From: Methanobrevibacter sp.
Lineage (GTDB): Archaea; Methanobacteriota; Methanobacteria; Methanobacteriales; Methanobacteriaceae
DNA: 37,626 bases
NCBI GenBank assembly: GCA_031284925.1
Contig: JAITXE010000079.1
Coordinates: forward strand, 1-37,626
Direction: 5' to 3'
Below the pieces are notes generated by a model. It was not told the DNA's origin. It searched no databases and was given only the letters and a program-made list of their open reading frames with translations. Made by a program: the position numbers and the translations under genes. This document shows, piece by piece, positions 21,369 to 36,385 of this stretch. How positions within the stretch are numbered: the stretch's first letter is position 1; every line of letters starts with the position of its first letter.

Positions 21369-21510
21369 GTCCATATTAAATGGATTTTATCATACTGCTT
21401 GTTTTTTTAATAATAAGCAATATTTAGCATATTAAAATAAAAATATAAAGCTGTGTTTTTTAAACTGCATGTTTATTAAGCATTCGAATCTACTTGTCTT
21501 TGTAGGTTTG
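21369..21510 (+). promoter_or_regulatory. Hairpin-rich segment in the tRNA-Ser/S13 gap, candidate structured 5' leader of rps13
   Basis: Stems GTCCAT/ATGGAT (21369-21385), TGCTTGTT/AATAAGCA (21396-21419), CGAATCTAC/GTAGGTTTG (21485-21510, two GU pairs). Confidence 0.35.
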
Positions 21511-27684: not shown

Positions 27685-27879
27685 ATGGTGAAAATTGTTT
27701 TAAATCAGGATGATTGCAATGGATTAGAAGCTTGTGGTGAATGTATTGATACATGCCCTTTAGAAATTTTTAAGCCCTATGGAGATAAAATAGTCATTGA
27801 GCATCCTGATGAATGTATCATCTGTGAAGCATGTGTTGATATTTGTCCTAACCAATGCATAAGTGTTAAAAGTGATTAA
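27685..27879 (+). CDS. 4Fe-4S ferredoxin
   Basis: Cysteine-rich ferredoxin pattern [14 protein letters not shown] and [16 protein letters not shown]. Confidence 0.9.
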
Positions 27880-27892
27880 TCAAGGTGATAAA

Positions 27893-28489
27893 TTGTCAGA
27901 ATTATTAATACCATTAGAACAATATTTGGCTTCTGGTTTACATATCGGAACCCAACAAAAAACTAAAGACATGGAAGAATATATCTTTAGAGTTAGAGCT
28001 GATGGTCTATATGTGTTAGATATTAGAAAAACTAATGATAAAATTGCAGCAGTAGCTAAATTTTTAGCTAAATATGATGCAGATGATATTTTAGCTGTAG
28101 CTACAAGACAGTATGGTCAAGCCCCAGTTAAGAAGTTTGGTGAGATGATTGGTTGTAAAACTATCCCTGGAAGATTTATTCCTGGAACTTTAACAAACCC
28201 TAATTATTCTAAATTCATAGAACCAAAAGTAATCTTAGTCACTGACCCAAGATCAGATTCACAAGCAATAATTGAATCTAAACAAAACGGAATTCCAATT
28301 GTAGCATTATGTGATAGTGAAAACTTAATTAGTTTAGTTGACTTATTAATACCAGTTAACAATAAAGGAAGAAAATCTATAGCATTAGTTTATTGGTTGC
28401 TAACAAGAGAAATTTTAAGAATTAAAGGAATAATAGGCGAAGATGAAGAATTAGATGTTGATTCATCAGATTTTACTCTTAAATTCTAA
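27893..28489 (+). CDS. rps2: 30S ribosomal protein S2 (TTG start)
   Basis: [60 protein letters not shown] Shine-Dalgarno; ORF-track start at 27863 overlaps the ferredoxin and is probably too early. Confidence 0.96.
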
Positions 28490-28531: not shown

Positions 28532-29397
28532 ATGATAAGAGAGCCTGTTGTTTCAGGATTGTTTTATAATAATGGTCCTGACACTTTAAGTAAAGAGATT
28601 GAAAATTGTTTCTTGAATAAGGATTTAGGTCCTGGGAAAATTCCTAACTTAAGTGTAAAATCTCAAAGTAAAGATTACTCTAAGATTTATGGTGCAGTTG
28701 TTCCACATGCAGGATATATCTACTCTGGTGCACTAGCTTCAAATAGCTATTATGAATTAGTTGAAAATGGATTTCCAGAAACATTTATTATATTATCCCC
28801 TAATCATACAGGGGAATGTTCTTCTAATATTTCAATTTTTAATGAGGGATATTGGAAAACACCCTTTGGCAATGTAAATGTTGATAGTTGATTTTGCAAA
28901 TAATCTAATTTCAAAGCTTTTGGTTGCTAAAAGTGATTTAAGAGGACATTTAAATGAACATGGTTGTGAGGTTCATCTCCCATTTCTTCAATACTTTAGC
29001 AATGATTTTAAAATAGTTCCAATTATTATATCCTTGCAGAATATGGAAACCTCTCAGGAGTTAGCTGATGGAATCATTAAAACGATTAATAATTTATCAA
29101 AAAATGTTTCAGTTATTGCAAGTACAGATTTAACCCATTATCAACTTCATAATTTAGCATCTAAGCAAGATTTAGCTATATTAAATTCAATTTCTAGATT
29201 AGATGAAAATGAATTAAATGGGATTGTTAAAAAACATAACATTTCAATGTGTGGTTATGCTCCAACTATCACTGCTATTAAAGTTTGCAAGCAAGTTAGG
29301 TGCTAAGCAGTTTCAAATTTTAAAATATGCATCAAGTGGAGATGTTTCTGGAGATTATAATTCTGTTGTCGGATATGGTTCTGGGATATTTAAATAA
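28532..29397 (+). pseudogene. MEMO1-family gene disrupted by two +1 frameshifts
   Basis: Three frames together rebuild a full-length MEMO protein: PHAGYIYSG, LSPNHTG | NEHGCEVHLPFLQ, ASTDLTHY, MCGYAPT | LGAKQFQILKYASSGDVSGDYNSVVGYGSGIFK; breaks near 28888 and 29290. Confidence 0.85.
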
Positions 29398-29571: not shown

Positions 29572-30534
29572 ATGGAATCTATAGCATCTGCTCCTGGAAA
29601 GATTATATTATTTGGAGAACATGCAGTTGTTTATAACCAACCAGCTATTGCAGCTGCAGTAGATAAAAGAGCTGTAGTTTCTGTTAAAAAAAGTGAAAAT
29701 AATTATACGACTTTAAAATCTTATGATTTAGGATTTGAAGCTATATTAAATACTAAAGAGAAAAGCTATGAACTTGTCAGTGGAAAACCTGGTATAATTC
29801 GCTATATTTTAGAGGCATTTTTTAATGCTCATGATCATAGTCCAGTCGATATTCTTTTATCATTGGCTTTTCCTGTTGGTTCAGGATTAGGTTCATCTGC
29901 AGCAGTCACAGTAGCAACACTTGCTGCTTTATATGGTTATCATAATAAAAAATTTACTAAAAAGACATTGGCTCATAATGCTTATATAGTTGAAAAGAAA
30001 GTTCAAGGAATGGCAAGTCCATTGGATACATTAATTTCTACAAATGCTGGTTTAATATACTTAAATAGGGATAAAAAGGTTTCAAGATTTAAGGTAGATT
30101 TGAAACCAACATTTGTAATTGGCTACACATCAAAAAAAAGAAGTACTCAAAAAATGGTTAAAAAGGTTTCTGAGTTAAGAAAACGAAATCCAATTGTTGT
30201 TGATTCTATTATACAAACAATGGGGTTACTTACTGAAGAAGCTAAAAATGCTATTTTAAAAATGGACAATGATAAAATTGCTCAATTATTGAATATTAAT
30301 CAAGGATTATTAGATTCTATTGGAGTAAATACAGTTGAACTTTCAAGAATGGTTTTTCGTGCAAGAAAATATGGTGCTTCTGGTGCAAAAATTACTGGTG
30401 CTGGTGGCGGTGGCAGTATGATAGCATTTTGCCCAAATCGATCTGGTGAAGTTTATCATTCTCTTAAAAATCGTGATAATGGACTTAAAGTGAATATTTC
30501 TAATGAAGGAATTATTTTAAAAACAAGAGTATAA
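29572..30534 (+). CDS. mvk: Mevalonate kinase
   Basis: ASAPGKIILFGEHAVVYNQPAIAAAV; FPVGSGLGSSAAVTVATLAAL; KITGAGGGGSMIA. Confidence 0.96.
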   Translation: MESIASAPGKIILFGEHAVVYNQPAIAAAVDKRAVVSVKKSENNYTTLKSYDLGFEAILNTKEKSYELVSGKPGIIRYILEAFFNAHDHSPVDILLSLAFPVGSGLGSSAAVTVATLAALYGYHNKKFTKKTLAHNAYIVEKKVQGMASPLDTLISTNAGLIYLNRDKKVSRFKVDLKPTFVIGYTSKKRSTQKMVKKVSELRKRNPIVVDSIIQTMGLLTEEAKNAILKMDNDKIAQLLNINQGLLDSIGVNTVELSRMVFRARKYGASGAKITGAGGGGSMIAFCPNRSGEVYHSLKNRDNGLKVNISNEGIILKTRV

Positions 30535-34393: not shown

Positions 34394-36385
34394 ATGAAGA
34401 TAATAATATTTTTAATTTTTTTCATGTTCTCTCTTGGATCTTTAACTCTTTATTGTTTTAGTGTTAATAACATGGTTGATATTGATAGTATTGTTTCTAA
34501 CATGACATTAGATGAGAAAATTACACAGAAAATTATGCCTGCATTTAGAACATGGAATGAATCAAATGAGAGTGAAGAGAATGTTACTTTGATGACTCCT
34601 GAGTTAGAATCTTATTTAAGAGAATATAAGTTTGGTGGTGTGATTTTATTTGGTATGAATACGAATAAAATTGAAGATATTGTGCATCTTACTTATGATT
34701 ATCAAAGAATATCAGTAAACTCAAGTGGCATACCTATGTTGATTTGTACAGATCAGGAAGGTGGTAATGTTGCTCGTATTGGTGGGGGAACAATGACTCC
34801 GGGGAATATGGCTCTGGGTGCTACCCAAAGTTATGTGGATGGAAAACAGGCTGGTTTAATAATTGGTGAGGAACTTAAATCATTAGGTATTAACACTGAT
34901 TTTGCTCCTGTTATTGATATAAATACAAATTCAAATAATCCTGTGATTGGTCGGCGTTCTTTTAGTTCAAACTCTCAATTAGTATCTTGGATGGGTGGCG
35001 CTTTTTGTGATGGTTTGCATTCAGCTGGAGTTTTATCAACAGGAAAACATTTCCCAGGTCATGGTGATACAGATACAGATTCTCATTCTGGGTTACCAGT
35101 TATTAATAAAACATTAGATCAGTTAAATCAATCTGAATTTATTCCATTTACTAATAATGTTGCTAATTTGGATTGTATTATGACAGCTCATATTACTCTT
35201 CCAAATGTTGATAATTCAACTGGGGGCTTGCATAATATAACTTTACCTGTGACTTTATCATATAAGATTTTAAATGAAATTTTACGGGGTCAAATAAATT
35301 ATAGGGGGGTTATTGTTACAGATGCTATGGAGATGAGTGCAATTAAAGATAATTTCAATGAAAGTAACGCTTTAATCAGGGCTTTCGCTGCAGATGATGA
35401 TATTGTACTTCAACCTTTTGCAGTTTATTCTTATTCTGAAGAAAATAAAACTCAAAGGATGATTAATGATGTGAAAGAAGCTATAATGACAAATAAGTAT
35501 AATTTAACTGAAAAAGAAATAGATGAAAGTGTTAAAAGAATTTTAAAATTGAAACAAAAACAGGGGATTATGAATTTATCACAGTATCAGCAACCAGTTG
35601 AAGATAAGGTTGAAAATGCGAAGAAGATTGTGGGATCTGTTAAACATCATGAAACTGAGAGAAAAATAAGTGATGATTCTATAACTCTTCTTAAAAATGA
35701 TAAAAATCAATTACCATGGAAGAGAACACAAGAAATAGGTGAGAAAACTTTATTTTTATCACCACTTGAATCTTCAAAAAATAGTATTCAATTTGGTATT
35801 AATAGGTTAAAGAATGATAATATTTTGTCAAATAATTATAATTATGATATTGAGTACTATCAATCTGATATTGATTATTATTCATTAAATGATCAAATTA
35901 GTTTTTGGAGAGATAAATTAAAGGATTATGATAAAATTGTTTTAATTACATTAATGAATTCTACTTCACAAAACACTGATAATAGTATTCCTAAAATTAT
36001 TTTAAAAGTTGCAAAGGAAGAAAATAAAGATACTACTCTCTGCTCTTCAGGGATTCCTTATGATGTTGCAAACTATAGAGAGGATGTGGATGTGATAACT
36101 GCATGTTATGGTAATAGGGGGCATGATGTTACAGATCCATCATCATCAAGTTTATCTTATGAACCAAACATACCCAGCTTAATTGATGTTATTTTTGGTT
36201 ATTGTAAACCAGAAGGATATTTCCCTGTTGATGCTTATAAGATAAATCTAGATGGAAGTCATGATTTTAATGAAATTATTTATCCTTTTGGTTGGAGAGT
36301 AGAAATAGAAAACAATACTCCAGAAAATAACATTTTAATCTCTTCTGATTTTAATAATAATAAAAAAAATACCTTATTTAGTTAA
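34394..36385 (+). CDS. Secreted glycoside hydrolase family 3, beta-N-acetylhexosaminidase (NagZ)-like
   Basis: N-terminal hydrophobic signal MKIIIFLIFFMFSLGSLTLYCF; DQEGGNVARIGG; KHFPGHGDTDTDSHSGLP; GVIVTDAMEMSAI; C-terminal extension ending in PFGWRVE. Confidence 0.92.
   Translation: MKIIIFLIFFMFSLGSLTLYCFSVNNMVDIDSIVSNMTLDEKITQKIMPAFRTWNESNESEENVTLMTPELESYLREYKFGGVILFGMNTNKIEDIVHLTYDYQRISVNSSGIPMLICTDQEGGNVARIGGGTMTPGNMALGATQSYVDGKQAGLIIGEELKSLGINTDFAPVIDINTNSNNPVIGRRSFSSNSQLVSWMGGAFCDGLHSAGVLSTGKHFPGHGDTDTDSHSGLPVINKTLDQLNQSEFIPFTNNVANLDCIMTAHITLPNVDNSTGGLHNITLPVTLSYKILNEILRGQINYRGVIVTDAMEMSAIKDNFNESNALIRAFAADDDIVLQPFAVYSYSEENKTQRMINDVKEAIMTNKYNLTEKEIDESVKRILKLKQKQGIMNLSQYQQPVEDKVENAKKIVGSVKHHETERKISDDSITLLKNDKNQLPWKRTQEIGEKTLFLSPLESSKNSIQFGINRLKNDNILSNNYNYDIEYYQSDIDYYSLNDQISFWRDKLKDYDKIVLITLMNSTSQNTDNSIPKIILKVAKEENKDTTLCSSGIPYDVANYREDVDVITACYGNRGHDVTDPSSSSLSYEPNIPSLIDVIFGYCKPEGYFPVDAYKINLDGSHDFNEIIYPFGWRVEIENNTPENNILISSDFNNNKKNTLFS

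Follow-up and report, generated by a model that had tools for sequence, protein, structure and literature searches.

A MEMO gene split by two single-base insertions, a probable recent pseudogene in an eroding Methanobacteriaceae genome

The ancient gene MEMO (AmmeMemoRadiSam system protein B) appears to be a genuine, recently inactivated pseudogene in the eroding genome described here, a reading to which we assign a probability of about 0.88. The window, i.e. the whole stretch of 37,626 nucleotides that was analysed, is contig C59 of a 1.17-Mb draft genome (G000) of 93 contigs, estimated to be 63.6% complete. The closest named match at the MEMO locus is a Methanobrevibacter MAG, with 58% identity, which together with the gene content points to the Methanobacteriaceae. 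Three reading frames taken in order at 28532-29397 make up a complete MEMO protein of 287 residues (PF01875; TIGR04336), split by two +1 insertions. The features of the locus are as follows.

27863-28489, + strand: rps2, intact, left flank of MEMO (profile match and synteny)
28532-28891, + strand: MEMO fragment 1, 119 aa from ATG to TGA, with the histidines of PHAGY and PNHTG, which correspond to H49 and H81 of human MEMO1 (alignment)
28878-29306, + strand: MEMO fragment 2, an ORF of 142 aa whose homologous part starts at 28890, with ASTDLTHY and the CGYAPT cysteine
28888-28889, + strand: first +1 lesion, a surplus T within AGTTGA (frame comparison)
29284-29286, + strand: second +1 lesion, a surplus T within GTTTGCA (homologue alignment)
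29287-29397, + strand: MEMO fragment 3, 36 C-terminal codons and the stop, ASKLGAKQ...SGDVSGD...VGYGSGIFK
29572-30534, + strand: mevalonate kinase gene (mvk), intact, right flank of MEMO (profile match and synteny)

The frame starting at 28532 matches positions 1-98 of the PF01875 profile (81.9 bits), the frame ending at 29306 matches positions 99-240 (110 bits), and the third stretch (29170-29385) corresponds to positions 199-268. Once joined, the frames score 245 bits over positions 1-268 of 269 of PF01875 (cut-off 27) and 287.8 bits with TIGR04336 (cut-off 26), and thus exceed the curated cut-offs over the full profiles. Given these scores, the match to MEMO is not due to chance, and the preliminary description of a complete protein reassembled from three frames across two +1 shifts is borne out. 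The locus does not form one continuous ORF, with stops at 28889-28891 and 29304-29306. The full-length match of the joined frames and the conserved positions of the iron ligands place this copy in the MEMO family, as does its location between rps2 and mvk, which is common to many Methanobacteriaceae members. In contrast, the two frameshifts, one extra codon and three changes at otherwise invariant residues set it apart.

The first fragment ends in GTT GAT AGT TGA, and skipping one T of 28888-28889 restores VDSDFANN, exactly as first proposed. The second lesion had initially been located at approximately 29292, but correction at that site leaves the mismatched stretch VCK, and we rejected it. 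If one T is left out of the TTT at 29284-29286 (AAAGTTTGCA), the reading becomes IKVASKLGAKQ. As this sequence aligns without gaps to the homologous IKASRSLGAKK, we placed the second lesion there. Both lesions are therefore single extra Ts, in runs of two and three Ts, respectively.

The iron ligands of human MEMO1 are H49, H81 and C244 (PMC11081632). An alignment with 31 homologues showed that their equivalents are kept in the PHAGY and PNHTG motifs and in the cysteine of CGY, though on different fragments. The human protein (PDB 3BCZ, 7KQ8), whose own primary function is unresolved (PMC11081632), is a distant homologue that matches the joined protein over its residues 54-285 (E=4e-14). Judging from the positions, the first break would leave the cysteine on a different fragment from the two histidines. 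With the reading frame split by the two single-T insertions, translation would give no more than two fragments, one of 119 residues with the histidine equivalents and one of 142 residues with the cysteine, and normal MEMO would most likely not be made.

Synonymous sites have diverged too far among the relatives for a dN/dS analysis, and we used instead a leave-one-out count of changes at invariant residues. Three of 48 MEMO residues otherwise invariant among the 31 homologues are changed (G97S, S144G and G243A). The same count gave no change in 22 homologues, one in five, two in two, three in one and five in one. In addition, the loop that follows the metal-ligand motif PNHTG probably contains a one-codon insertion (TGECSSN vs TG-xGxxx), an extra codon absent from the seven homologues printed alongside. 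The kept metal-site residues and the small number of invariant positions changed would suit a recent loss.

A recent loss, as the preliminary description had suggested, is also supported by the genomic context. The search for a second intact MEMO gene proposed at that stage was performed, and none was found in the 63.6%-complete assembly. The locus thus combines disabling lesions with intact homologues elsewhere and no functional copy found in this partial genome, as is typical of a pseudogene of an eroding lineage. MEMO is present in 104 of 120 genomes of the family, nearly all as open frames, and in 78 of the 84 genomes that are at least 90% complete, both counts including the broken copy described here. 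Not all of the other copies look intact, as G055 and G089 have split matches. In G055 (C41:35210-36033) two overlapping stretches match MEMO close to the C-terminus and may represent a second frameshifted MEMO gene.

The comparison with relatives at the locus, also suggested earlier, detected no MEMO in any of the five genus mates; these are draft genomes (84-93% complete), and a gene missing from them need not have been lost. In the two mates whose rps2-mvk junction was read, G001 and G003, the order eno-rps2-mvk-IPK-idi-RNase J is kept and MEMO is cut out. The gap between rps2 and mvk measures 264 bp in G001 and 100 bp in G003, vs 1082 bp in the present genome, and tblastn detected no MEMO remnants in the two shorter gaps. 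mvk is present in the other three mates (G002, G004 and G005); a candidate rps2-mvk region in G005 (L132, contig C175) turned out to be unrelated. In a GTPase tree the present genome falls outside the five mates, with low support (47). Its identity to the mates is lower than that of the mates among themselves, both for the GTPase (five mates) and for six genes of the window (two mates). On the basis of the tree and these identities, the loss of MEMO in this genome is likely, though not proven, to be recent and independent of that in the genus mates.

To look for other broken genes, we compared 600 ORFs of the relative G030, from 0.8 Mb of its genome, with ~1.06 of the 1.17 Mb of the present assembly. 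We found 224 intact genes and 12 flagged as broken, of which ~8 remained after doubtful cases had been removed. The gene for methanogenesis marker 8 (L162, 4725-5524, contig C24) is interrupted by four in-frame stops along its main stretch and also changes frame, whereas all five genus mates have it intact. A pirin-like gene is spread over three frames with five stops, and an aldo/keto reductase gene has three stops. Frameshifts were found in the genes for RecQ (~3492) and a P-type metal ATPase (~6232), with one each relative to G030 on L267 (contig C84), as well as in a MoaB-like gene and one more gene. Among the cases set aside, the reference ORF of a gene near window position 21439 looks N-terminally extended, and that at 5846-6265 of L165 looks like a spurious antisense ORF. 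Two further cases with one stop each were discarded after the alignments had been read, and the short truA-like and trpF-like hits were rejected because they seem to reflect an insertion or fusion on the reference side and not a break in the present genome. A gene with several stops is better explained by decay than by error. In intestinal Methanobrevibacteraceae, genome erosion with lower coding density and more pseudogenes has been reported, the excess being greatest in arthropod-associated and endosymbiotic lineages (PMC13135261; PMC11287868). The present genome, with a GC content of 26%, resembles them in belonging to the same broad group, in its AT richness and in its scattered broken genes. 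In contrast, the terms MEMO and AMMECR1 are absent from the main text of these two studies.

These broken genes also bear on the possibility that MEMO is intact and that both extra Ts arose in sequencing or assembly, which we consider improbable. The assembly is an incomplete draft in many contigs, and the genome has a few other isolated frameshifts. Two of the single frameshifts lie at runs of A, nine in the MoaB-like gene and six in the RecQ gene, and some of them could therefore be errors. However, the MEMO lesions lie in runs of only two and three Ts in a genome that has many longer runs. The 204 kb of coding sequence that were checked contain ~4 isolated frameshifts; at that rate, a gene of 866 bp would receive two with a probability of ~1.4e-4 (0.03 over 236 genes), which is suggestive rather than decisive. 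In addition, base-insertion errors do not explain the several in-frame stops of other genes, and the lack of MEMO in the searches of all five mates also speaks against an error. The initial argument from the short runs thus holds and is strengthened by the genes with several in-frame stops.

Programmed recoding, in which two +1 frameshifts would produce full-length MEMO, is far less probable still. Both shifts are indeed +1 and the joined protein looks well preserved, but two such events would be required within one gene, and the protein departs from its homologues at three otherwise invariant residues and in a conserved loop. Furthermore, the genus mates seem to manage without MEMO. The preliminary description had left recoding open; it is now strongly disfavoured, since nearly all other MEMO genes of the family are single open frames. 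It is equally hard to accept that MEMO has become two coupled ORFs with cooperating products, as the ATG at 28878, in the frame of fragment 2 and 11 bases upstream of the stop of the overlapping ORF 1, may be there by chance given that the homologous region starts at 28890, and the second lesion breaks ORF 2 as well, so that it stops at 29306 and does not reach the conserved block SGDVSGD...VGYGSG of the C-terminus.

With MEMO most probably a recent pseudogene, the state of the other AmmeMemoRadiSam components is of interest. AMMECR1 is intact in the present genome (192 aa). It was not found in the five genus mates, nor beside its GTPase neighbour in them (in G003, the contig ends close to the GTPase gene). 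Among the 119 other genomes of the family, 16 have no MEMO, 16 no AMMECR1 and 12 neither (Fisher p=3e-10); with the genus mates excluded, the numbers are 11, 11 and 7 (p=2e-6). These p-values overstate the evidence, the genomes being related and many of them incomplete. In the set at least 90% complete, six genomes have no MEMO, six no AMMECR1 and five neither, in three genera. Across the family, genomes without MEMO thus tend to be without AMMECR1 as well, 12 of 16 absences being common to both.

The 63.6%-complete genome gave no match to TIGR04337, the family of the radical SAM partner, so that the three intact components of an AmmeMemoRadiSam system are not found together in it. The five mates gave weak matches at most (best E=2.6e-8). 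Some genomes that have MEMO and AMMECR1 (e.g. G011 and G027) also have no strong TIGR04337 match, and the radical SAM link therefore looks looser. G043 and G047 (97-98% complete) gave no MEMO or AMMECR1 match and retain a radical SAM match that does not reach the cut-off of that family. Our literature search on the function of archaeal MEMO or AmmeMemoRadiSam returned nothing direct.

MEMO and AMMECR1 have apparently been lost in the five other sampled species of the genus, as judged from searches of incomplete genomes. The present genome is seemingly on the same path independently, with MEMO broken, AMMECR1 intact and the radical SAM partner not found; the order and independence of these steps are deduced from the comparisons above. 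It looks like an intermediate state, ordinary gene decay caught part-way. More tentatively, MEMO and AMMECR1 might belong to one shared pathway that several lineages of the family have discarded, and this genome might show the order of loss, with the radical SAM partner gone, MEMO broken and AMMECR1 next.

As a separate observation, the window also encodes, at 34394-36385 (+ strand), a protein of 663 aa that is hydrophobic at its start and carries a domain of glycosyl hydrolase family 3 (PF00933, 275 bits). Such a protein is unexpected in a methanogen; its best NCBIfam match, below the cut-off, is beta-N-acetylhexosaminidase.

Genome erosion of this kind has already been described; the new elements are the present case and the apparent loss of MEMO together with AMMECR1. 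A MEMO pseudogene in an eroding genome is otherwise ordinary, and the wider interest lies in the joint absence of the two genes in the family. MEMO is conserved from archaea to humans, and its primary molecular function is unknown (PMC11081632). Natural, apparent losses of MEMO and AMMECR1 would indicate that MEMO can be dispensable and point to the partner with which it tends to vanish, and a half-lost MEMO may offer an opening for studying the former role of the pathway.
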